From Maricaulis maris MCS10 (GTDB lineage Bacteria > Pseudomonadota > Alphaproteobacteria > Caulobacterales > Maricaulaceae): DNA of 64,000 bases. Positions 8,557 to 22,838 of the stretch are shown here, piece by piece. The notes under the pieces were generated by a model that made no database searches, was not told where the DNA came from, and saw nothing but the letters and a program-made list of their open reading frames with translations. The stretch covers positions 3,054,001 through 3,118,000 of the forward strand of contig NC_008347.1 of the NCBI RefSeq assembly GCF_000014745.1, in the 5' to 3' direction. Both the position numbers and the translations under genes were made by a program. How positions within the stretch are numbered: the stretch's first letter is position 1; each line of letters begins with the position of its first letter.

Positions 8557-11500
8557 TCAGTGCATTGAAAGCGGCAAACGGATCCGGATCATAGCGTTAT
8601 TGGCTTCAAAATCGCCTTCGCCCAGACCGATCATCGAGACCTCGCCCGAGATGCGGCCACCATTTGCCATTTCCACTGTCAGACCCAAACGCGCGTCACC
8701 CCGCAAATGGCCGAGCGTTTGCAGTGTACCGGCAGCGTTGAACACATCGGCATCATCATAATCGTAGAGGGCCGTCACATTCAGGTAGGGCTCGACATAA
8801 CCGCCAGCGGCATTCTCGAACCGATATGCCACTTCAGGCCCGGCCGAAAGGCGCCCGATCGTGATGGTCTGACCGGGAATGAAAATGCCAAGCGTGTCGG
8901 TGTAGGAGTCCTGGCTTTCGTGGAAGTAAGCTAGGCCGACACCTGGCGTGACCCGCCATCCTCCGTGCAGGATATCGCCGGCCAGATTGGCCTCGATCAA
9001 CCAGCGATCCGTCTCGAAGCTGTCGGTATAGGTTCCAATCGGATTGACCGAATTGTCCGACCGCCCCCAGGCCGCACGCAAATCGAGATAGGTGCGGTCC
9101 GAAATCCGCGCGACCATATACGGGCCGGCCATCCAGCCATTCCCTTCAACCGCACTATTCCAGTCGCCCGTCGTCATGTCGGTCTGGTCGTACTGTAGCA
9201 AAACACCGGCGAGCACATTCGCGGAGACCATTATATCCGTCCCGACATGCACGATTGAGAAATCCGCATCCGAACCCAGGCCTGCCCGGTTGTCCGAGAC
9301 ACTTGCGACACTGGCCTGCATCCAGACATCAAGGCTGGACAAGCCGGTCCGGCCATTCAGCGAGAAGCGCTCAGCGCCCGGCTGTTGCGGTTGGCTCGCC
9401 TCGGCTGCCTGACGCAGCGCGCCCAGGCTCGTCGACATTTGTGCATTCAGGCGTCCGTCGCGGAAATCAGCAGCAAAACTGTTCGGCGTCGCCGAGCTCC
9501 GGTCGCTACGCATCCGCCCGGCTAAACGCGGGCTATTGGTCAGGATGAGATCGGCACGCGTAGCCATGAAGTTACGGATCGCAGACAGGGTCACTCCGCG
9601 GATATAGTCCTCATTCCGCCGATTGGCGAAGGTACAGACCATGTTCTCCTCGGCGTCGAGGTCGATCGTGACCTGACCGCTCGCGAGATCATAGATATTG
9701 CCGCCGTCCAGATCGCCGGTGCAGGACAGGGATGCGAGGTCCCAGCCTTCCGACGCCAACTGGGTCAGGACATAGCTCCCGCGAAGAACGTCATTGACGG
9801 TAGTGCTGGCACTACCACCGGCCGTCAGGACGGTTTGCCCGTCCAGCGCCGTGAGTGTCGAGGTGTAGGAGAAGCTTCCCTCCCCCTCTTCCGGGGCCGT
9901 TGTTCTCGTTATGATCGTCAGATCACCCAAGCGCGGTTCGATTGCAATGTTCACCGGTATCTCGAGCGTTTCCAGCGCATTGGCCTTTCTGCCCCCACCG
10001 CGCTGAGACGGCGGACTGACTTCGACCACCGTGATCGTTGCAGTGTAGGAGCCCGGGGCCAGGTCCAGGACGGCCGCGGTAAAGCTGACCGTGAACTCGA
10101 GGCTCCCGGTCGCAGGAATTGAACCTGAGGTCGGGTCGATCACCAGCCAGGGCTGGTCAGTCGATGCGGTGAAGTAGAAGGCTTCACCGCCGACGTTTTG
10201 CAGATCGAAACTGCTGGTGGCGCTGGTCGGATCATCGGTCAGCGTCGGCAGCTCGATTGTGACGTCAGGAATCACGGTCTCATCGACATCCGGCTCTGCG
10301 ATCTGGGTGAACTCACAAGTCACAGAGTCCGTCGGCCCCAGTGTCACTGTCGCGCTGCCCGTTGCAGAGTCCAGGACGGATGTCCCGCCGGTGCAGCCGA
10401 TCGCATCAAGATTAAACCCATCGACTGCGGCCGCCGTGAAGGTATAGCTACCCTCGACCAGGTCATTAAAGCTGGTCACGCCAGCCTGGCTAACTGTAGC
10501 GACGGAGAAGTCGCCAAGATCACCACTGAAGTCGAAACTTCCATCTGTAGCCCCGGTGATGGCAACGGCAACGAACAAAGAGCCGCGGCGCATTTCAACG
10601 CTGAGCAGGTCGGCCACCGGACTGTCCGGCAAGGCATTACCCGCGGCATCCGCGGCTGCAGAAACCGTGACATCCACATCCGCAGCCACCTGGCCGCCAT
10701 CGGTTACGCTATAGGTTGCGGTGTAGACGGTGTCACCCGCCGAGAAAGCGCCACTATCAAGCGACAATGTTGCCGAAAGGTCCGTCGAGAAAGTGAAAAC
10801 CGGCGCCTGGCCCGGATCCATGGCTTCGCTAAACGTGGCCGTAAGGGTGAAACTTCGGCCCACATCCTCGACTCGAAGATCGGCATCCGACACGGCAAGG
10901 CTGTCCAGCCCGGGCAAGCTCAGATCGGCATCCACTGCGAACTGCGTAGCGGCCACATTGGCGTTTCCGGCCGCGTCCTGAACCGAATTGGCGGCCAGAT
11001 TGACCGTCACCGATCCACTTGTTGCCGGCGTGACATCGACTGTGTAGCTGTTGCCTGAGCCGGCCAGATTGGCGGCGCTGCCATTGCCGACGGTGAAATC
11101 GGCCAACACCAAGCCGGTCACGTCCTCGGAGAAGTCCACAGAAACCGTGAATGTCCCGACTTGATCGATTGCCGGACCGGCAAGGGAGACCATCGGGGCT
11201 GTTTCGTCATTCTCGATCGAGAATTGCGCCGCCGCGACATTGCCATTGCCAGCGCCATCCTGGGCGGCGTTGCCGGCTACATTGACGGTAACCGTCCCGT
11301 CAGCCACTGGCGTAATCGTGGCAGTGTAAACGTTCGCACTGATTGCGGAGAAGCTCGACGCAGCACCATTTCCGACCGAGAAGTCGCCCAATGCTAAGCC
11401 AGTGACCGCTTCGGAGAAGGTCGCGGTGATTATGAAGGCACCGGATACCGGATCTGCAGAGCCAGTTGTCAGCACCACTGCCGGCCCGGTTTCGTCATTC

Positions 11501-14500
11501 TCGATCGAGAACTGGGTTGCTGCTGTACTGTCGTTGCCAGCGCTATCCTGAGCGGCACCGCCCGCGACATCAACTGTCACCGTGCCATCGATGGTCGGTG
11601 TGATCGTCGCCGTGTAAACTGTCGTGCTGGTTGCCGAGAAGTTCGAGGCTGATCCATTGCCCACAGACAAATCATCGACAGCAAAGCCTGTGACGGCTTC
11701 CGAGAAAGTCGCTGTGATTGCAAAGGCGCCAGAGACTGGGTCTGACGAGCCTGTTGTCAGGGCCACGGTCGGAACCGTCTCGTCATTATCGATCGAGAAT
11801 TGCGGTGCAGCGGTATTGTTATTGCCCGCCGCGTCCTGCGCGACAGCGCCGGCGACATCGACCGTTACCGTACCATCTGCCGCTGGCGTGATGGTCGCTG
11901 TGTAAACGGTCGCACTGGTCGCTGAGAAATCCGACGCCGTGCCGTTTCCGACCCCGAAGTCAGCTAGCACAAGGCCAGTGACGTTTTCGGAGAAGGTCGC
12001 CGTGATCGTGAAGGCTCCCGAGACCGGATCAGCCGATCCGGTTGAGAGGGCCACGGTCGGGGCTGTCTCATCGTTTTCGATCGTGAACTGGGTCGCCGCC
12101 AGGCTGGCATTGCCGGCGCTATCCTGGGCCGCGCCTGCTGCCACATCGATCGTGACCGAACCGTCGCCAGCCGGCGTGATGGTCGCCGTATATGCGGTGG
12201 CGCTGGTCGCCGAGAAGTTCGACGCCGCACCATTGCCAACCGAAAGATCACCCAGCCCGAAGCCGGTCACACTTTCAGAGAAGGTCGCTGTGATCGTGAA
12301 CGCACCGGACACCGGATCTGCAGAGCCAGTCGTCAGCACCACTGCCGGCCCGGTCTCATCGTTTTCGATCGAGAACTGGCTTGCTGCCGCATTGCCATTC
12401 CCCGCGCCATCGTGAGCGGCACCCGCCGCCACATCGACCGTTACCGTGCCGTCAGTGGCCGGTGTGATCGTGGCGGTATATACCGTCGTGCTGGTCGCCA
12501 AGAAATTCGACACCGACCCGTTGCCGACTGCGAAATCGTCCACAGCAAAGCCTGTGACGGCTTCTGAGAAAGTCGCCGTAATCGTAAAGGCGCCGGAGAC
12601 CGGATCCGAAGAGCCGGTGGTCAGCGTAACAGTCGACAACGTCTCGTCATTCTCGATCGAGAATTGCGTTGCCGCGGAATTGTCATTGCCCGCCGCGTCC
12701 TGCGCGACAGCGCCGGCCACATCAACCGTTACCGTGCCGTCAGCGGCCGGTGTGATCGTTGCGGTATATACCGTCGCGCTGGTCGCCGCGAAATCCGAGG
12801 CCGACCCGTTGCCGACCGAGAAATCGCCGACGGCAAAGCCGGTGACACTTTCCGAGAAGGTCGCGGTGATCGTGAACGTACCGGAGACCGGATCAGCCGA
12901 TCCGGTGGACAAGGCCACAGTCGGGAGCGTCTCGTCGTTTTCTATTGAGAACTGTGTCGCCGCAGCATTGCCATTGCCCGCGCCGTCCTGGGCAGCATTC
13001 GCCCCCACATCGACCGTCACCGAACCATCCGAGGCCGGTGTGATCGTCGCAGTGTAGACTGTGACACTCATGGCCGCGAAATTCGACGCCCCACCATTGC
13101 CAACCGAGAAGTCACCCAGTCCGAAACCGTTGACGCCTTCGGAGAAGGTCGCGGTGATCGTGAACGCACCGGACACTGGGTCCACAGAGCCGGTTGTCAG
13201 CACCACGGTCGGAACGGTCTCGTCATTCTCGATCGAGAATTGCGTTGCTGCCGTACTGTCGTTGCCAGCGCTATCCTGGGCGGCACCGCCCGCGACATCA
13301 ACTGTCACCGTACCATCTGCCGCCGGCGTTATTGTCGCCGTGTAGACGGTGGCACTGGTCGCCGAGAAGTTCGACACCGCACCATTGCCAACCGCAAAAT
13401 CCCCGGCCGCGAAGCTGGTGACATCTTCTGAGAAAGTCGCCGTGATTGTGAATGTACCCGCAATGGGGTCGGCGGCGCCACTTGTCAGCGCCACTGTCGG
13501 AACGGTTTCATCATTCTCGATCGAGAATTGCGTTGCAGCAGCATTGTTATTGCCCGCATCATCCTGAGCGACAGCGCCAGATATATCGACCGTGACCGTG
13601 CCGTCGGCGGCCGGCGTAATCGTGGCGGTGTAGACTGTGGCACTCGTGGCCGCGAAATTCGACGCCGCTCCATTGCCAACCGAGAAGTCACCCAGTCCGA
13701 AACCGTTGACGCCTTCGGAGAACGTCGCCGTGATTGCAAACGCACCGGAGACCGGATCAGCCGATCCGGTCGAGAGGGCCACTGTTGGGGGTGTCTCGTC
13801 ATTTTCGATGACAAATTGGGTCGCAGCCACATTGTCATTGCCGGCGGCATCCTGAGCTACGCCGGACCCGACATCCACCGTGACGGAACCGTCAGCCGAA
13901 GGGGTCACAGTAGCGGAGAAGTCACCGCCGCCATTATCGGAAAAGGCCGAAAGAGCCCCATTACCGACGCTGATATCGCCCACCAGAAAGCCAGTAACCG
14001 CCTCACCGAAGTCGACAGTGAGCGAGAAGGCGCCGGACACCGGGTCCGCGGAACCGGTTGAGATCGACGGTGTTGGCCCGGTCAGATCAAGCGCAACTGT
14101 ATTGGTGACAGCTGTCGCGGCATTGCCGGAGGCGTCCGTGAGGACGACACTGACGGTCAGCGTACCTTCATTGAGACCGGAAACATCGACCCCGGAGACC
14201 TGGAATTCAGACGGGTCCCCCGCAGCGGGAATAGGGATATTGCCGGTTCCGGTGACGTTAGCGCCACCGCCATCCGACGAGATTGTATAGCTGTAATTGG
14301 TCAGGGTTTCCGGGTCATCGATCGTAAATGACGCGGCCGCATAGTTTGATGCCCCGTAAAGCGCCGCGTCGAACGCGACAGTATGACCGGAGGGCGCGAT
14401 ATTGTCGGTGCCGACACCCATGATGCCAAACAGGAACGGGGCCTCGTCTCCATCATCATTGGCGATGGAAACCGTCGCATTTGACGCACCCGCTATAGCG

Positions 14501-17217
14501 GGATCAAACAAAATTGTGAACGTCGTCGAATCGCCCGCCGCCACGGTCGTGGCAGGTTGAGCGGTGACCGAAAAATCATTTGACCCTGAAATCGAGACGG
14601 CCTCGCTGCCAAGCGTGAGGGCGGCGCCGCCATCATTATTGATGGTGAAGGTGGCAGACGCGGCTCCGCTGTCCGCCGCCAAGCTGCCGAAATCCGTTCC
14701 ATCCGCAACGGATGGCGATGCGTCTGCGTAGGCGATATTGATTGTGTTACCAGCACCCGCCACGCGAATTTCCGGCAAAACGGTTCCCACGCCAGCAATG
14801 GCAAAATCATAGCTCGCCTCATCTGCGTCATCACTGGTGACAGTGACAGTCGCGGCGCGCGATGCAGCGACAGACGGATCAAACCCAATTGTAAAAGTCG
14901 TGGTCGCACCCGGCGTAACGCTGGCAGCCGGGGCTGAAGTAATGGAAAAATCCGCCATATTCGCACCCGAAAGCGCGACGTTTGTGATCGTCAGCGTGTC
15001 TGTGCCCAGATTTTCAATTGTGAAGGTCCGCGAGGAGGTACCAGCTGTCACATCGGTGGGCACGAATTGGGTATGGTCCGCCAGGCTCGGCGAGACGTCC
15101 CCATCGACAATCGAAACCGAATTACCTTCAATATCAATCTCCGGGTCGCCGGCCACCGCGTCGAATGTGAACGTGTTCGACAAGGCGTTATCATCGCCCT
15201 CAGCATCCTGAACGACAGCCGCCGGAAGGAAAACCGCGACCGCGCCGGTACCTACGGGCGAAACGGTGAGCGTCCAGTCAGAGCCAGACCCGGAAAGTCC
15301 GTCCGACGTCGCATTGGTGAGGGCGAAATCACCGGCGACAAGATCGGTGATCGGCTCACTGAAGCGGACAGCGATATCACGGGAGAACGCTACGCCGAGA
15401 TCATCTGTATCGCCTGAAATCGTGACGCTGGGCGGAGTGCCGCCCGGGACATTGACGTCAAAGCTGTCAGACGCGGGATCAATCGTCACAGCACCATCGT
15501 CGGAACGGGTCGCAGTCAGATTGCCGGTTGTATTTGTGTAGGTTCCATCAGCCGCGCCCGCAGGGACGCTGAGCGTGACGGTGAAGGTACAAGAGCCCTC
15601 GGATGCCAAGTTTCCACCCGTCAGCGACAGGACACTTGTTCCGGTCAGACTCGAACCGGCACCGCAAACATCCGACAGCGGCGTCCCCGTGGCAGTCGCA
15701 CTGCTCAACATGGCGTCGAGGTCATCCGTGAACGCGATGCCCGTTGTTGTGAAAGCACCCGTCGCTGCAATGAAAAACTCAACGTCGATTGTGTCGCCCG
15801 GCGCCACTTCGTCGTCCGCGAAGGTTTTGGTGAACTGGATCGTGCCACCGGCTCCCTCGGCGAAATCAACGGTCAGGACGTCTGCAGCCTGCGTGTCCGT
15901 GTAGCTATCGACGCCGAGATTGTAGTTCAGCGCGGTCGTACTGAAACCGTAATTGCCGGCTGCAAGCGCGTCATCAATCTCAATCGGCAGGTCAAATGAA
16001 CAGCTGCCGCCAGACAGAAGCTCCATCGAGCTGAACCGAACAAACGTGTTGGCACTAAACAAAGTCGCAGTCGAACTCGCACCGCAAGGCAGGGCAGCGG
16101 GCGCGACGCCGACAAAGTCGGTGCTCGACGAGGCATCAATGTCGAGGTCAAATTGGCCGGCCGTCAGGTCGTCGGCAGAATTATTGGTGATGGTAAAACG
16201 CAACGTCGCCTGATCAAGCGGGTCGACCGGATTCGCCACGAAGACTGCCGTGAAGTCGACATCATCCCGTGGATCACCATCAACATCGTAGACCACGCTG
16301 TAGACACTTGAAGCGGTATTGTCGTTGCCGGACTGGTCGACCACGGTCGCAGCAGGCAGTTGAACGGTAATCGGCGTACCGGCACCAGTCGGCGTCACCT
16401 CGATTGTGACCGAGGAAACACCGTCTCCCGTTTGAGCGGCGTCCCCTCCCAGGTCGGCGAAGGCAACAGTTGCATTCGCGACGACAAGATCGCTCACCGC
16501 GAAGCCGTCAATCGTCTCCGAATACAATCCAAACTCGAGGAAGCTGATATCAATGTTGAACGGTGCATCCACCGGTCCGCCCGGCCCTGTAATAACTGGC
16601 GATGGCGCGGCAGTATCGAGGCCGACCTCGATATTGAAATCGTCCCAGTCGCGATCAATCGCGCCAGAAGTGGAGCCGGTGCCCGTTATATTACTTGGAG
16701 ACGCCACATAGGTGTTCGAAGCGCTCGACGCAGGCGTCGACGCGGGGATCGAAACCGAATAGCGGATGAGGCATTGGCCAACCGGGTCGACGCTGGACAC
16801 AGAAACCAGCCCCAAACCGTTGGACGAGACCTCTGGAGTCCCGCAGTTAAAGGTGGAAATCGACCCGAGATCGAGACGCGCACCCGCCAATACCGCGCCG
16901 TAATCCACGGTAAATGTGAAGCCTGTAAGGGTCTCTGATCCGTTCCCCCAAATAGTGTGGCTGATGAATGCATTTTCACCCGGGTCGATCCGCGGCTCAT
17001 CGCCGGTCTCGTAAGTAGCGCTCGAGGCAGTCACGAAAAACTGCGCTGACGCATCGGAGGCCGCCAGGGCGCCACCCGCCAGGCCGGCCGCAAGAAGAGC
17101 CGCCAAGCGCACGGGCGCAATTCTGGGTATCGCTATACTGGATTTTGCCTGACCGGCTCCCCGCGACGGAAACTCAGAACGGCCAAAGATCGAAACAAAA
17201 CCCAAGATATCGCGCAT
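8557..17217 (-). CDS. Giant autotransporter-like surface protein with tandem bacterial Ig-like repeats
   Basis: 2886 residues, about 8.7 kb. The start ATG at 17217 has GGGGGA five bases upstream. Order of parts: a long signal peptide (hydrophobic core RLAALLAAGLAGGALAA, cut near residue 59); mixed beta domains; a DUF7933-like region (from about residue 450); two choice-of-anchor-D/ASPM-Hydin-like units (FTIENLGTDTLTITN and AGDSTTFTILFDP); eleven Ig-like (Big_12-type) repeats at about 1050-2095, each with TGSADPVSGAFTITATFSE and DGTVTVDV signatures; two prealbumin-like modules; then a roughly 290-residue C-terminal beta-barrel of autotransporter type (from about 2600). Likely a secreted adhesin or S-layer-like filament anchored in the outer membrane. 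The barrel ends PLSMH rather than in the usual Phe or Trp. No catalytic domain was seen. Confidence 0.85.
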   Translation of the reverse strand: MRDILGFVSIFGRSEFPSRGAGQAKSSIAIPRIAPVRLAALLAAGLAGGALAASDASAQFFVTASSATYETGDEPRIDPGENAFISHTIWGNGSETLTGFTFTVDYGAVLAGARLDLGSISTFNCGTPEVSSNGLGLVSVSSVDPVGQCLIRYSVSIPASTPASSASNTYVASPSNITGTGSTSGAIDRDWDDFNIEVGLDTAAPSPVITGPGGPVDAPFNIDISFLEFGLYSETIDGFAVSDLVVANATVAFADLGGDAAQTGDGVSSVTIEVTPTGAGTPITVQLPAATVVDQSGNDNTASSVYSVVYDVDGDPRDDVDFTAVFVANPVDPLDQATLRFTITNNSADDLTAGQFDLDIDASSSTDFVGVAPAALPCGASSTATLFSANTFVRFSSMELLSGGSCSFDLPIEIDDALAAGNYGFSTTALNYNLGVDSYTDTQAADVLTVDFAEGAGGTIQFTKTFADDEVAPGDTIDVEFFIAATGAFTTTGIAFTDDLDAMLSSATATGTPLSDVCGAGSSLTGTSVLSLTGGNLASEGSCTFTVTLSVPAGAADGTYTNTTGNLTATRSDDGAVTIDPASDSFDVNVPGGTPPSVTISGDTDDLGVAFSRDIAVRFSEPITDLVAGDFALTNATSDGLSGSGSDWTLTVSPVGTGAVAVFLPAAVVQDAEGDDNALSNTFTFDAVAGDPEIDIEGNSVSIVDGDVSPSLADHTQFVPTDVTAGTSSRTFTIENLGTDTLTITNVALSGANMADFSITSAPAASVTPGATTTFTIGFDPSVAASRAATVTVTSDDADEASYDFAIAGVGTVLPEIRVAGAGNTINIAYADASPSVADGTDFGSLAADSGAASATFTINNDGGAALTLGSEAVSISGSNDFSVTAQPATTVAAGDSTTFTILFDPAIAGASNATVSIANDDGDEAPFLFGIMGVGTDNIAPSGHTVAFDAALYGASNYAAASFTIDDPETLTNYSYTISSDGGGANVTGTGNIPIPAAGDPSEFQVSGVDVSGLNEGTLTVSVVLTDASGNAATAVTNTVALDLTGPTPSISTGSADPVSGAFSLTVDFGEAVTGFLVGDISVGNGALSAFSDNGGGDFSATVTPSADGSVTVDVGSGVAQDAAGNDNVAATQFVIENDETPPTVALSTGSADPVSGAFAITATFSEGVNGFGLGDFSVGNGAASNFAATSATVYTATITPAADGTVTVDISGAVAQDDAGNNNAAATQFSIENDETVPTVALTSGAADPIAGTFTITATFSEDVTSFAAGDFAVGNGAVSNFSATSATVYTATITPAADGTVTVDVAGGAAQDSAGNDSTAATQFSIENDETVPTVVLTTGSVDPVSGAFTITATFSEGVNGFGLGDFSVGNGGASNFAAMSVTVYTATITPASDGSVTVDVGANAAQDGAGNGNAAATQFSIENDETLPTVALSTGSADPVSGTFTITATFSESVTGFAVGDFSVGNGSASDFAATSATVYTATITPAADGTVTVDVAGAVAQDAAGNDNSAATQFSIENDETLSTVTLTTGSSDPVSGAFTITATFSEAVTGFAVDDFAVGNGSVSNFLATSTTVYTATITPATDGTVTVDVAAGAAHDGAGNGNAAASQFSIENDETGPAVVLTTGSADPVSGAFTITATFSESVTGFGLGDLSVGNGAASNFSATSATAYTATITPAGDGSVTIDVAAGAAQDSAGNASLAATQFTIENDETAPTVALSTGSADPVSGAFTITATFSENVTGLVLADFGVGNGTASDFSATSATVYTATITPAADGTVTVDVAGAVAQDAAGNNNTAAPQFSIDNDETVPTVALTTGSSDPVSGAFAITATFSEAVTGFAVDDLSVGNGSASNFSATSTTVYTATITPTIDGTVTVDVAGGAAQDSAGNDSTAATQFSIENDETGPAVVLTTGSADPVSGAFIITATFSEAVTGLALGDFSVGNGAASSFSAISANVYTATITPVADGTVTVNVAGNAAQDGAGNGNVAAAQFSIENDETAPMVSLAGPAIDQVGTFTVSVDFSEDVTGLVLADFTVGNGSAANLAGSGNSYTVDVTPATSGSVTVNLAANSVQDAAGNANVAATQFAVDADLSLPGLDSLAVSDADLRVEDVGRSFTLTATFSEAMDPGQAPVFTFSTDLSATLSLDSGAFSAGDTVYTATYSVTDGGQVAADVDVTVSAAADAAGNALPDSPVADLLSVEMRRGSLFVAVAITGATDGSFDFSGDLGDFSVATVSQAGVTSFNDLVEGSYTFTAAAVDGFNLDAIGCTGGTSVLDSATGSATVTLGPTDSVTCEFTQIAEPDVDETVIPDVTIELPTLTDDPTSATSSFDLQNVGGEAFYFTASTDQPWLVIDPTSGSIPATGSLEFTVSFTAAVLDLAPGSYTATITVVEVSPPSQRGGGRKANALETLEIPVNIAIEPRLGDLTIITRTTAPEEGEGSFSYTSTLTALDGQTVLTAGGSASTTVNDVLRGSYVLTQLASEGWDLASLSCTGDLDGGNIYDLASGQVTIDLDAEENMVCTFANRRNEDYIRGVTLSAIRNFMATRADLILTNSPRLAGRMRSDRSSATPNSFAADFRDGRLNAQMSTSLGALRQAAEASQPQQPGAERFSLNGRTGLSSLDVWMQASVASVSDNRAGLGSDADFSIVHVGTDIMVSANVLAGVLLQYDQTDMTTGDWNSAVEGNGWMAGPYMVARISDRTYLDLRAAWGRSDNSVNPIGTYTDSFETDRWLIEANLAGDILHGGWRVTPGVGLAYFHESQDSYTDTLGIFIPGQTITIGRLSAGPEVAYRFENAAGGYVEPYLNVTALYDYDDADVFNAAGTLQTLGHLRGDARLGLTVEMANGGRISGEVSMIGLGEGDFEANNAMIRIRLPLSMH
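10915..14065 (-). repeat. Eleven tandem coding repeats, exact 288-bp period
   Basis: The junction motif (plus strand GTCTCGTCATTCTCGATCGA and variants, coding for the ENDET linker) recurs at about 11201, 11489, 11777, 12065, 12353, 12641, 12929, 13217, 13505 and 13793, always 288 bp apart. That gives eleven 96-codon units with no insertion or deletion between the ten junctions. The first and last units are the most divergent. Inner units are near-identical over long stretches at DNA level, which suggests homogenisation by recombination. Confidence 0.92.
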
Positions 17218-17468: not shown

Positions 17469-18276
17469 GGTGCTGTCAGACTAAACCGGACTGGTCTCGA
17501 AAGACATTCTTTGCCCCTGACTCAGGCCACGAGTTGGCGCCATTCGGCCAAGGCGACGGAGCGGTTTTCCTTGAAGTCGGGTCGCGAGTAGAGGTGGCGC
17601 TCGAGGCTGAAGTGATTGTGGATGGACGATTGGACGGTGGCGAACTTCTGGAGGCTTTTCGGGCGCCTGAACTTGCCCATGGTTTTCTCTCGGCGCCGTA
17701 GGGGCTGGTGCGAGTTTTCGGCCCGGTTGTTGCGCCACCTCCCGGTCTCCTGGCGGCCCACAACCCCCAGCTCCCGAAGCGCTGATTTGTAGCTGCGCAA
17801 CTTGTCGGTGACCACCACTTCCGGGCGGCCATATCGCTTCATCGCCTTGCGCAGAAATTTCAGCGCTGCCTTGCGATCACGATGCTTGGTGACATACGTC
17901 TTCAGCACCTCACCTTCGTGATCGACGGCCCGCCAGAGGTAGCGGAGCTCGCCGTTGATCCGAACGAAAACCTCATCCAGATGCCAAGTCCAATTTGAGT
18001 AGTGCCCATTCTGAACGCGGCGCTTGCGGATCGATTTCGCAAACAGCGGTCCGAAGCGGTTCCACCAGCAGCGAACCGTCTCGTGCGTGATGTCGATACC
18101 GCGCTCGTGGAGCAAATCTTCCACGTTCCGAAGCGAGAGCGGGGAACGGATATACATCATCACCGCCAGGCGGATGATTTCGGGCGAAGTCTTGAAGTAC
18201 CGGAACGGATTACGCATCGGAGAACGCTACGAAACAGGGACTCGGCGCTCAAGCGATTCTCCTCTGACACTGCCCC
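17469..18276 (-). mobile_element. IS6-family insertion sequence
   Basis: About 0.8 kb, the normal size for this family, enclosing one transposase gene. The proposed ends are imperfect: GGTGCTGTCAGACTAAAC at 17469 inward, and on the other side GGCAGTGTCAGAGGAGAA read inward from 18274, sharing TGTCAGA. The eight bases outside each end do not match, so I see no target duplication. That is common after IS6 cointegration and rearrangement. The element separates the promoter side of the giant surface-protein gene from tRNA-Ser. End positions are approximate. Confidence 0.65.
17522..18217 (-). CDS. IS6-family DDE transposase
   Basis: 231 residues, full length for IS6/IS26-like transposases. The N-terminal helix-turn-helix region includes SLRNVEDLLHERGIDITHETVRCW, split here only by the writing limit: SLRNVEDLLHERG then IDITHETVRCW. 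The catalytic acidic triad is visible in TWHLDEVFVRI (first Asp), VVTDKLRSYKSA (second Asp) and NNRAENSHQPLRRREK (Glu followed by the K/R helix). No frameshift or internal stop is visible, so the element may still be active. Confidence 0.93.
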   Translation of the reverse strand: MRNPFRYFKTSPEIIRLAVMMYIRSPLSLRNVEDLLHERGIDITHETVRCWWNRFGPLFAKSIRKRRVQNGHYSNWTWHLDEVFVRINGELRYLWRAVDHEGEVLKTYVTKHRDRKAALKFLRKAMKRYGRPEVVVTDKLRSYKSALRELGVVGRQETGRWRNNRAENSHQPLRRREKTMGKFRRPKSLQKFATVQSSIHNHFSLERHLYSRPDFKENRSVALAEWRQLVA

Positions 18277-19176: not shown

Positions 19177-19848
19177 ATGTTTGCAGTGATCAAGACCGGC
19201 GGTAAGCAATACCGCGTTGCCGCTGGCGACGAAATTCGCATCGAGAAGCTCGAGGGCGCCGCTGGCGATACGCTCGACCTCGGTGATGTGCTGATGCTCG
19301 GCTCGGAAGCCGGCGTCACGGTTGGCTCGCCGACCATTGATGGCGCCCAGGTGATCGGCGAGCTGCTGGACACCAATCGCGCCCGCAAGATCATCGTCTT
19401 CAAGAAGCGCCGCCGCCAGAACTACCGTCGCACCAAGGGCCACCGCCAGTGGGGCACGGTCGTGCGGATCGCCGAAATCGTCGCACCGGGCGAGAAGGCC
19501 AAGACCGCGCTGAAGTCGACCACGGCTGAACCGAAAGCCGCTGACGCGCCGAAGGCGAAAGCCAAGGCTGCCCCGAAGGCCGAAAAAGCTGCTGCACCGA
19601 AAGCTGAAAAGGCTCCGGCCAAGAAAGCCGCAGCGCCGAAGGCCGCAGCCGCCGACGCACTGACAGAGCTGACGGGTGTGGGCCCGGCCCTCGCCACCAA
19701 GCTGAATGAAGCTGGCATCACCACGTTTGCGCAGGTCGCAGCCTGGACCGAAGCCGACCTGGACGCCCTGAGCGAGACCATCACGGGTCTCAAGGCCAAG
19801 GCAGAGAAAAACGACTGGATCAACGCCGCCAAGGCGCTGGCCAAGTAA
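19177..19848 (+). CDS. rplU: 50S ribosomal protein L21 with C-terminal helix-hairpin-helix extension
   Basis: 223 residues, about twice the usual 100-105. Residues 1-103 are a complete L21 ([20 protein letters not shown] at the start, [16 protein letters not shown] in the rRNA-binding part). Then comes an Ala/Lys/Pro linker of about 55 residues (repeating AAPKAEK-like units) and a helix-hairpin-helix-like domain [20 protein letters not shown] near 165-220. Extended L21 forms are known in alphaproteobacteria. It is followed 15 bp later by rpmA, the usual partner. Confidence 0.95.
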
Positions 19849-20929: not shown

Positions 20930-21919
20930 CTAACGATCCTGCGCCGTCATAAACTCGATAAGCGAGGTTGTGCCACTGCCATCAAGATCGTCGCCTCGTC
21001 CCATTGTCCACCAGTCGCAATCAGAACACTGATAGCTGAGTTCCGTGTAAGATGTCAGTTGGCGCAATTCGACATCAGAGAGCCGTGGCAGAGACGCCGC
21101 CAACGCGGCTTCAGCTGGGCATTGCGGGCGAACGCCAAACCCGTCGACCGGACGTATGCCGGGACTTGTTGTGGTCGAAACGCTCTCGAAACGCGTTCCA
21201 TGTACGCCGTTGATTACGCGCGGCTCAAGGCGGTCTGCGCGATCAAGAATACCGTCTCCGTTACGGTCCATTTGCCCGAACGTGTTGGTCCAGCGAGCGA
21301 GCAAAGCGTCGCTGAATTCAGTGGGGGTGATCTGGCTGTCCAGATCCCGATCAAATGCCAGGAATTCGGCATCGCGCATCATTTGATCGCGCTCAGCGAG
21401 GTCGGCCCAGCAAACGTCGGAAACCTGATTGGCGTGATCGACAAAAACTCTCGGGTCGAGATCAAAAAATTCGAACATTGATAGCAACGCCGCGCGCCGG
21501 GCGGGCGTTACGTCAGGTCTGTCGCTTGCGAATACAGCGCGGGCGTCTGGATATCTGGAGCGGTACTCCGCTCTGTCGATCAGCTGATCGCGGTTCACGT
21601 CGATCCGGCGAAACTCCGCGAACCCCCAGACGCGCTCTTCCGGCGAAGCATTGAAAACTCCGGTAACCGCAACAAACACCCACGCACCCAACGCGGCTCC
21701 AACGAAAGCAGATGAAATCATGATCGGACTCCCTGGCAGTCGCGCCATCGGGCCGAAATTGGCATAGGCGCGCATGGCGTCGCGAATGACCGAGCTCGCC
21801 GACCGGCCCGCCGCACGACAGACCTCAAGAAAAGCCGCCTTCTCCTCGGGAGAGACGCGGACTTCAAGCATGCCCGTCTTCTTCGACGGACGCCTCCGGT
21901 TCGGTTTTTGCTCAGTCAT
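20930..21919 (-). CDS. Membrane-anchored ribbon-helix-helix protein with four EF-hands
   Basis: 329 residues from the ATG at 21919 (a GTG at 21949 would add ten). Residues 14-54 form an RHH-like DNA-binding module (MLEVRVSPEEKAAF then RSASSVIRDAMRAY). A single membrane segment follows at about 66-88. The C-terminal part holds four canonical EF-hand loops: DVNRDQLIDRAE (107-118), DRDLDSQITPTE (190-201), DRNGDGILDRAD (218-229) and DLDGSGTTSLIE (311-322). With the RHH in the cytoplasm, the EF-hands would be periplasmic, suggesting a calcium-sensing transmembrane regulator; this is inference. The RHH module closely matches that of the gene at 22099. Cysteines at about 170, 267, 298 and 301 could form disulfides. 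Confidence 0.8.
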   Translation of the reverse strand: MTEQKPNRRRPSKKTGMLEVRVSPEEKAAFLEVCRAAGRSASSVIRDAMRAYANFGPMARLPGSPIMISSAFVGAALGAWVFVAVTGVFNASPEERVWGFAEFRRIDVNRDQLIDRAEYRSRYPDARAVFASDRPDVTPARRAALLSMFEFFDLDPRVFVDHANQVSDVCWADLAERDQMMRDAEFLAFDRDLDSQITPTEFSDALLARWTNTFGQMDRNGDGILDRADRLEPRVINGVHGTRFESVSTTTSPGIRPVDGFGVRPQCPAEAALAASLPRLSDVELRQLTSYTELSYQCSDCDWWTMGRGDDLDGSGTTSLIEFMTAQDR

Positions 21920-22062
21920 TCGACCATCATGGAAGCCTGCACATCGCACTGTTTTCCAGCGTTTTCGCGTTCATACGCCGGAACATTCGTGTGTGGACAA
22001 GCGCCTTTCACAAAGTTTGTACGGACGGACCGATGCAAACGGCAGCATGATTTTCCGCAAAT

Positions 22063-22091
22063 GCGTGCCGGGCACGGCTTCCCCGGCACGC
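22063..22091 (-). terminator. Possible terminator downstream of the RHH-TonB gene
   Basis: GCGTGCCGGG (22063-22072) pairs perfectly with CCCGGCACGC (22082-22091) over a 9-base loop, 8 bp after the stop of the upstream gene. The T-run is poor (ATTTGC), so termination may be partial. If it works, it separates the two RHH-membrane genes transcriptionally. Confidence 0.4.
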
Positions 22092-22098
22092 ACCCCGC

Positions 22099-22653
22099 TT
22101 ATCCCGCCTCAGGTGCAAGCTTGAAGTCAAAGGCGGTGCCCTGATCCGGCAAAACGGTGCCTGTCGGGAAACACCAGTCACGCAATGCAGCGACCGCCGC
22201 AGTGACAAAGGCGTCATAGCCTTCAGGCGCATCCGGCCGGATGTTTGTCGCGCGGCCCTCCGCCGTCTGGTCAAAGCGGAGCGTGACCCGTATTCCCTCC
22301 GGCGGTACGGCAAGCCCGTCCCCGGCCGCTCCGACCGGCCAGATTGGTGCCCGCCGCTCCACACCGCCAGAACACACAGGCCTTTCGGTCGTGACAGGCT
22401 CCGTCGCGGTCGACGGCTGGCCCACCTGCAACACGCCGGCGAGCGGCAACATCAGCATCATCGTCATGATCATTCTCTGTCTCCCTGGTTTCTCGTGGAT
22501 ACGACGCGCATGAATGCGCATCGCCTTGCGAATGATCATGCTGGCCGAATGTCCGCTTGCCACGCAGGCCGACAGGAATTCGGCCTTGTCTTCCGGTGCG
22601 ACCCTGACTTCAAGCATCGCAGTCTTCTTCGGGTATCGCTTCTTCGTCCGCAT
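22099..22653 (-). CDS. Membrane-anchored ribbon-helix-helix protein with TonB-C-like domain
   Basis: 184 residues from the ATG at 22653, which has GAGGTG at the right distance. Residues 10-50 repeat the RHH module of the next gene (KKTAMLEVRVAPEDKAEF, then HSASMIIRKAMRIHA). A membrane segment at 61-78 (MIMTMMLMLPLAGVLQVG) follows, then a roughly 80-residue domain resembling the TonB C-terminus (VTLRFDQTAEGRATNIRP and VAALRDWCFPTG). Two cysteines (94, 161) may pair in the periplasm. No proline-rich TonB spacer is present, so it is unlikely to be a true energy transducer. Function unknown; it may be a transmembrane regulator related to its neighbour. Confidence 0.78.
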   Translation of the reverse strand: MRTKKRYPKKTAMLEVRVAPEDKAEFLSACVASGHSASMIIRKAMRIHARRIHEKPGRQRMIMTMMLMLPLAGVLQVGQPSTATEPVTTERPVCSGGVERRAPIWPVGAAGDGLAVPPEGIRVTLRFDQTAEGRATNIRPDAPEGYDAFVTAAVAALRDWCFPTGTVLPDQGTAFDFKLAPEAG

Positions 22654-22838
22654 GATCACCTCGGGATTTTCACGGCAGCGCCGGGCAGGACCAGGGGAAA
22701 CGGGTTCATACTGTTCGCGTTTCGTGTCCGGACCCTGCGATTTGAACGTGTGGACGCGACCTCTGCAAGAAAAGCCGTGTCCGGACATCGTATTCCACGG
22801 CAGAAACGCACTGATTTCCGCCCATTTTGCCTGTATAG

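Follow-up and report, generated by a model that had tools for sequence, protein, structure and literature searches.

What would a ribbon-helix-helix (RHH) DNA-binding module do when fused to a membrane helix with an exported domain beyond it? RHH proteins are generally known to be small soluble repressors, and the question is raised by two adjacent genes in a 64,000-bp stretch of the Maricaulis maris MCS10 genome (hereafter, the window), which an earlier note made from the sequence had read as a pair of membrane-tethered RHH proteins with different periplasmic domains. Here we analyze these two genes (P0001 and P0002) together with a third paralogue located elsewhere in the Maricaulis genome (P0003), which also encodes an RHH module, a hydrophobic helix and EF-hands, and with a set of relatives from other genomes.

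The reading we favor, to which we assign a probability of about 0.6, is that the two genes encode autoregulated, membrane-tethered RHH regulators and would, through a second start inside each, additionally supply the exported domain on its own. It draws on the homology of the module to RHH proteins, on a charge bias that places the N-terminal side inside the cell, and on operator and internal-start signals that emerge from the comparison of related genes; from these we infer the binding of the module to the operator, repression, the use of both starts and the sensing of a ligand.

The two genes and their common module

Both genes lie on the minus strand. P0001 (329 aa; 20930..21919) encodes an RHH module, a membrane helix and an exported part with EF-hands, and P0002 (184 aa; 22099..22653) encodes the module and helix followed by a TonB_C-like exported part. 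Their starts were assigned from the position of the module, and longer open frames exist upstream, with alternative starts at a GTG (21949) for P0001 and at an ATG (22842) for P0002. An obgE-like gene is divergent from P0002 across a gap of 224 bp, and a GNAT-like gene on the opposite strand adjoins P0001 tail to tail, both named by eye. Elsewhere in the window we noticed, also by eye, a 2886-aa repeat protein with an autotransporter-barrel-like C-terminal end (8557-17217, minus strand), a 231-aa IS6-like transposase beside it (17522-18217, minus strand), and an rplU-like gene with a long Ala/Lys-rich extension and a helix-hairpin-helix-like end stretch (19177-19848, plus strand).

The earlier note had described a nearly identical N-terminal module in the two proteins, and the own-genome search agrees: residues 13-55 of P0001 (21755..21883, minus strand) and 9-51 of P0002 (22501..22629, minus strand) are 66% identical across 41 residues (E 3.1e-12). 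The module spans about 45 residues and has four invariant positions in the aligned rows. When a 28-row profile of it was searched against the PDB, DinJ came out on top (E 6.6e-6), followed by weaker matches to VapB26, ORF56, MazE7, two CopG-type antidotes and ParG; the remaining four of the 11 matches (E up to 10) were two designed proteins, MALT1 and BcmD, all with E 0.34 or worse. At E<=0.1, the 28 rows matched the Pfam families RelB (18 rows), RHH_1 (14), RHH_9 (14) and NikA-like (13). Single sequences score lower: P0001 reaches 17.8 bits against RHH_1 at full length, under the cut-off of 20.5, and 22.2 bits, over it, as a 48-residue piece, and P0002 matches RHH_9 alone among the RHH families, at 12.9 bits and under the cut-off of 23.4. 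Judged by the leading DinJ match and by the RelB and RHH_1 rows, the module is RHH-like, as had been proposed, and its sequence places it in the RHH superfamily, nearest to RelB/DinJ.

Closeness to RelB/DinJ and the GNAT-like gene beside P0001 would both suit a type II antitoxin of the RelB/DinJ or TacA kind that had acquired a membrane helix and kept a toxin partner nearby. We set this reading aside as very improbable: no toxin was recognized by eye in the 25 largest neighbor clusters from 41 stretches, and the GNAT-like gene, on the opposite strand and convergent with P0001, is not in an operon with it.

Membrane helix, topology and exported domains

Hydropathy reveals a single hydrophobic segment after the module in each protein, at residues 67-89 of P0001 (21653..21721, minus strand; best 19-residue stretch 71-89) and residues 61-79 of P0002 (22417..22473, minus strand), which bears out the single membrane helix that had been described. 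For family-wide statistics we compiled a set of 62 members, obtained from 77 distinct open-reading frames (ORF) by removing six incomplete and six redundant ones, and then, from the resulting 65, three short helix-less RHH proteins; the members are the best matches of each search and not a random draw, and the fetched loci are a part of all matches. In this set, net charge averages +2.6 over the 15 residues preceding the helix and -1.4 past it, with the N-terminal side higher in 59 of the 62 members. Because of this bias, the RHH side is predicted to be cytoplasmic, again as the earlier note had it. Just two properties, hydropathy and charge bias, thereby predict the layout of a membrane-integrated one-component regulator, in which a single helix separates an inner DNA-binding domain from an outer one.

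Outside the membrane, P0001 matches Pfam EF-hand_1 in three stretches (E 1.1e-6, 28.1 bits, cut-off 25.4), and P0003 matches it with 28.7 bits against the same cut-off of 25.4. The loops of P0001, all on the minus strand, lie at residues 107-118 (21566..21601, from Pfam), 190-201 (21317..21352, by eye), 218-229 (21233..21268, from Pfam) and 311-322 (20954..20989, by eye). The four EF-hands claimed for this protein can all be counted by eye; calling them all canonical slightly overstates the case, because the third loop has Asp at position 12, where it ends, and the fourth is degenerate. For P0002, the TonB_C-like stretch covers residues 122-165 (22159..22290, minus strand) and stays under the Pfam cut-off (E 0.011, 16.6 bits against 24.6), whereas a relative with the same architecture, in locus L127, exceeds it (E 1.7e-8, 35.2 bits). 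The two cysteines described for this region are there, C94 and C161 being in the exported part, with C30 in the module; the TonB-C-like assignment of the domain is weak.

Across the family, the exported part is variable: it consists mostly of EF-hands, is TonB_C in L127, and has no Pfam match in three of five proteins scanned. In both aligned sets, conservation is highest in the module: 80% against 31% for the exported part in set A2, and 73% against 48% in set A3.

Distribution of the architecture

Matches to the P0001 module were found in 30 of 101 genomes (E<=0.001) and to the P0002 module in 18 of 101 (E<=0.01), the Maricaulis genome included in both counts. A profile of the module matched 144 of 398 genomes, in 31 of 59 genera, within the order (E<=1e-9), 34 of 385 genomes within the class (E<=1e-3) and 26 of 398 within the phylum (E<=1e-6). 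Of the 28 class-level matches listed, a helix is not predicted for 23, which resemble ordinary RHH proteins; two belong to the own genome and order, and three outside the order (L058, L059 and L060) have a helix and EF-hands. In the phylum draw, the members in L252, L254, L256 and L260, all from outside the order, have a helix and EF-hands, and that in L258 ends shortly past the helix; the six phylum-level matches beyond the class are in open frames 63-106 codons long. Tandem copies are present (for example, in L127, L128, L136 and L139), and one relative (G034:C136) has a stop within its exported part. The search for the architecture across genomes that had been suggested thus shows the design recurring, with differing exported domains, and long members are also present in further alphaproteobacterial families.

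A probable internal start

A feature that goes beyond what the earlier note had anticipated lies at the junction of linker and helix. P0001 has an internal in-frame ATG at Met67 (21719..21721, minus strand) with GGAG 7 nt ahead of it (21729..21732, minus strand), and P0002 has one at Met61 (22471..22473, minus strand) with GGAG likewise 7 nt ahead (22481..22484, minus strand). The predicted products, of 263 and 124 aa, would lack the RHH module; they carry no positive charge at their start and are poor candidates for a signal peptide.

The arrangement is common in the family. In 52 of the 62 members, a Met falls in the linker that runs from the module to the helix start; Met accounts for 5.1% of this linker versus 2.2% of the sequence after the helix, and GGAG stands at 6-8 nt ahead of 30 of 72 linker Mets, versus 1 of 214 post-helix Mets and 6 of 1406 linker codons other than Met. 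Under synonymous recoding, 6.7 +/- 2.2 of the 52 members would be expected to have the signal, and 30 were observed to have it. The spacing from GGAG to ATG is 6 nt in 16 cases and 7 nt in 12; these two spacings fall in two codon frames, and the signal is therefore not an amino-acid motif of the protein. With a looser definition (a Shine-Dalgarno-like 4-mer at 4-10 nt from a linker ATG), the signal is present in 43 of the 62 members, including both window genes, and is missing in 19, among them the five small f3 members that were examined. Two of five scorable new members from outside the order (L254 and L260) have an internal ATG with a Shine-Dalgarno sequence. As judged by this comparison, each gene probably also yields its exported domain free of the RHH module; that both starts are used is what the signal suggests.

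Could the exported protein be all that matters, with the internal start as the main one and the RHH part as the leftover of a two-cistron fusion? The two window genes lend this idea some color, their internal Shine-Dalgarno duplexes being strong (-7.5 and -8.0) and their first starts weak by inspection, but across the family the duplex energies of the two kinds of start are alike (means -4.9 and -5.1), and the RHH module is the best conserved part. The module and helix also stay fused, since all open frames among the matches listed at E<=1e-9 have at least 111 codons; the 62-member set was chosen for the fusion of module and helix and is therefore no test of it. We consider a two-cistron leftover most unlikely.

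A candidate operator upstream of the family's own genes

The region upstream of P0002 contains the 8-base palindrome GTCCGGAC (22726-22733) followed 22 bp on by GTATGAAC, together forming a candidate operator at 22699..22735 (minus strand), and a second operator-like site that includes TGTCCGGACA (22778-22787) at 22765..22788 (minus strand). Upstream of P0001, boxes read from the sequence form a candidate operator at 21964..21999 (minus strand), with a degenerate first box, GTCCACAC (21991-21998), and a second box, GTATGAAC (21969-21976), also 22 bp apart. Upstream distances depend on the assigned starts; were the start of P0002 at 22842, its operator sites would fall inside the gene. In the aligned upstream regions of 10 P0003-type genes, TGTCCGGAC is invariant.

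Among the 57 members with an assignable start (five of the 62 were left out), 32 have GTCCGGAC within 250 nt upstream, where shuffling predicts 0.3, and no other 8-base palindrome occurs upstream of more than four of them. A real background is given by neighboring ORFs, 15 of 242 of which have the palindrome, and in 7 of these 15 it falls in a member's own upstream region. Over all 32 boxed sequences, a second copy of GTCCGGAC is apparent at exactly +22, with 5.19 of 8 positions matching; the mean for all offsets is 2.1 (sd 0.54), and the next best offset gives 3.19.

An operator model was built from 24 of the 32 boxed sequences, eight having been dropped by eye, mostly for weak second boxes, which sharpens the second box in the model. 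The 24 training sequences included the site of P0002 and sites closely related to that of P0003; the P0001 site was not among them. In the window, the model matches 21964-21992 upstream of P0001 (E 4.2e-4). Over the 3.37-Mb genome, a scan with Infernal under stricter filters returned six matches at E<=1: P0003 (4e-6), P0002 (0.022 and 0.128), P0001 (0.022) and two sites elsewhere (0.35 and 0.40). The three paralogues outrank every other site, the ranking of P0002 and P0003 not being independent because of the training set. In 61 genomes, 27 matches were obtained at E<=0.01, 23 of them just upstream of a member; two of these 23 are one site on both strands, giving 22 of 26 sites, many of which are kin of the training set. 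The remaining four comprise one too close to a contig end, two within ORFs and one before a FliF-like ORF. This last site (L299; G020:C504:6276-6311) lies 33 nt before the ORF and scores E 0.0017.

A separate check used members from outside the order that had no part in box discovery. Among the five that could be scored, the exact box is present in three (L254, L256 and L260), occurs with one mismatch in L258 and is missing in L252; L259, which has no assignable start, was left out. Two further new members within the order divide, L255 having the box and L257 not. In the main set, the exact box is absent in 25 of 57 members, and 12 of 57 have no box within 300 nt even with one mismatch, including the small f3 members L109, L123, L124 and L125. 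None of the five small f3 members examined has an exact box, L113 having a distant one-mismatch site only, and by eye three of five (the genes in L118, L120 and L125) are directly behind another ORF.

Autoregulated antitoxins have a palindromic operator upstream of their own gene, and RHH dimers, on the precedent of MetJ, are expected to bind sites such as an 8-base palindrome. By this sequence comparison, the bipartite palindrome is the candidate operator of the module, which we infer to bind it. A simple sigma-70 promoter scan found no promoter, so that the case for repression is taken from RHH precedent.

Specificity of the candidate operator and genomic context

The palindrome could instead belong to another, unrelated regulator, the RHH module having a different target or a protein partner. 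The 12 members lacking even a one-mismatch box would fit this, as would the wider occurrence of TGTCCGGACA, which is somewhat commoner across the 101 genomes than its reversed control (395 versus 313), and markedly so in a few of them (G032, 15 versus 0; G059, 13 versus 2; G041, 10 versus 0); the excess in these and other genomes is not explained by the genes studied here. In the Maricaulis genome, exact TGTCCGGACA occurs once, before P0002, and the reversed control three times. In four genomes with an excess (36 stretches, partly overlapping), all but one pair of the TGTCCGGACA sites among the matches listed lie inside an ORF, ORFs being taken here as at least 120 codons on either strand and not all being real genes. 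In G032, a genome where the P0002 module finds no match, paired copies of TGTCCGGACA stand 31-32 bp apart in L230 (G032:C1:260571, 260603) and L232 (G032:C1:1102769, 1102800), one pair ahead of an MFS-like gene and the other ahead of a different ORF; here perhaps another regulator with a like site is at work. Among the matches listed in the open-access literature for TGTCCGGACA, no title concerned a bacterial regulator. Against an unrelated regulator, the box accompanies the module across outer domains, genomic places and several families, the three paralogues are the best matches of the model in their genome, and the palindrome suits an RHH dimer; we accordingly think such a regulator unlikely.

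A wide regulon was also considered and rejected, the operator search centering on the family's own genes and giving no sign of one. The earlier note had envisaged an unfamiliar one-component signaling design; in this, signaling stays conjectural, because the operator search points to self-regulation and not to a wide regulon. Neighbor clustering of the same 41 stretches, with the genes of the 25 largest clusters named by eye, revealed no conserved partner genes, the common neighbors looking like housekeeping genes. The obgE gene adjoins the gene or genes in the window and in L135-L137, those in L128, L138 and L139 are near other genes of that stretch, and others are located elsewhere.

Self-regulation leaves room for a further explanation, in which the RHH module would be active only while the full-length protein is cytosolic, and membrane insertion, or cleavage after the helix, would remove it from the operator, so that the gene would sense the state of export and not a periplasmic ligand. 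Operator matches centered on these genes, and a constant module beside widely varying exported domains, as befits a signal independent of the outer domain, both agree with such an export-coupled autorepressor. AxA cleavage sites after the helix, however, are not enriched (27 of 62 members versus 29.6 by residue shuffling), and a tethered regulator is able to bind DNA, as described for CadC (PMC6320335). Its chances seem to us slim, on a par with those of the unrelated regulator.

Proposed mechanism

In the tethered, autoregulated reading that we prefer, the RHH dimer would bind the two-part palindrome that precedes its own gene (GTCCGGAC and, 22 bp further, a second copy) and control how much that gene is transcribed, most likely repressing it. 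Translation from the first start would give the full-length tethered regulator, and translation from the second ATG, which lies immediately ahead of the helix and has a Shine-Dalgarno sequence of its own, the exported domain alone. A ligand of the outer domain (possibly Ca2+ for the EF-hand type) or the state of a partner might then shift how the tethered dimers sit on the operator. Since the regulator bears the same outer domain as the product, the gene could adjust its own output of a periplasmic protein.

More broadly, the genes may represent a widespread alphaproteobacterial family with one gene, two products and one loop, in which a tethered RHH module controls the amount of the exported domain made from the internal start, through an operator that in the Maricaulis genome stands out only at the family's own paralogues; we advance this generalization tentatively, at somewhat less than even odds. 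On this view, one operator is common to paralogues whose outer domains differ, so that several periplasmic signals could each act on the genes of the other paralogues. If true, RHH would be an added DNA-binding fold in membrane-integrated one-component regulation, with its own conserved operator. If the internal start is used, a regulator and an exported product would come from one ORF, with the common outer domain closing a feedback loop, and a possible route from periplasmic EF-hand proteins to transcription would emerge.

Relation to known systems

We found no open-access paper joining ribbon-helix-helix with EF-hand or with membrane-tethered, subscription papers being mostly outside the search, and none in the open-access literature joining Maricaulis with EF-hand. 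The closest relatives by module sequence are the RHH (MetJ/Arc/CopG) repressors, nearest RelB/DinJ, with which the family also shares a palindromic candidate operator before its own gene; it differs from them in carrying a membrane helix and an exported domain after the module, with no toxin partner seen among the 25 largest neighbor clusters. NikR is an RHH regulator that recognizes two half-sites 22 bp apart, the distance found here; it is a soluble nickel sensor with another ligand domain.

Among membrane-bound regulators, CadC and ToxR have a winged-helix DNA-binding domain (OmpR-like) and act on other genes, whereas P0001 and P0002 have an RHH module, their candidate target is their own gene, and an internal start would free the outer domain. 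No OmpR-like winged-helix family appears in the Pfam results for the eight proteins scanned; the matches are to EF-hand, TonB_C and RHH-type families and, once and weakly, to DUF2613. The likeness to CadC and ToxR lies in the union of one membrane helix with a DNA-binding receptor; PMC6320335 presents CadC as a membrane-integrated receptor, with a single helix, that binds DNA while in the membrane.

Exported EF-hand proteins offer the other point of comparison. Excerpts of PMC9132961 describe EfhP of Pseudomonas aeruginosa as an exported EF-hand protein that affects transcription, and excerpts of PMC13171946 describe CaBP of Caulobacter vibrioides as an exported EF-hand protein that links Ca2+ to transcription. 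Both resemble the present family, as far as these excerpts go, in placing EF-hands in the periplasm, and they tie Ca2+ to transcription, as the present family may also do. They differ in that CaBP has 133 aa and a Sec signal peptide and the word "ribbon" is absent from the main text of PMC13171946, and in that "DNA-binding" is absent from the main text of PMC9132961. The component that relays the CaBP signal is, in a statement by its authors, still to be identified (PMC13171946), and the same source names CCNA_02234, a Caulobacter protein with an EF-hand, as a "probable transmembrane protein". This protein may be the small RHH-helix-EF member of Caulobacter. RHH repressors and membrane one-component regulators are both known kinds; what appears from the sequence to be new here is the joining of an RHH module, a membrane helix and an exported domain in one protein.
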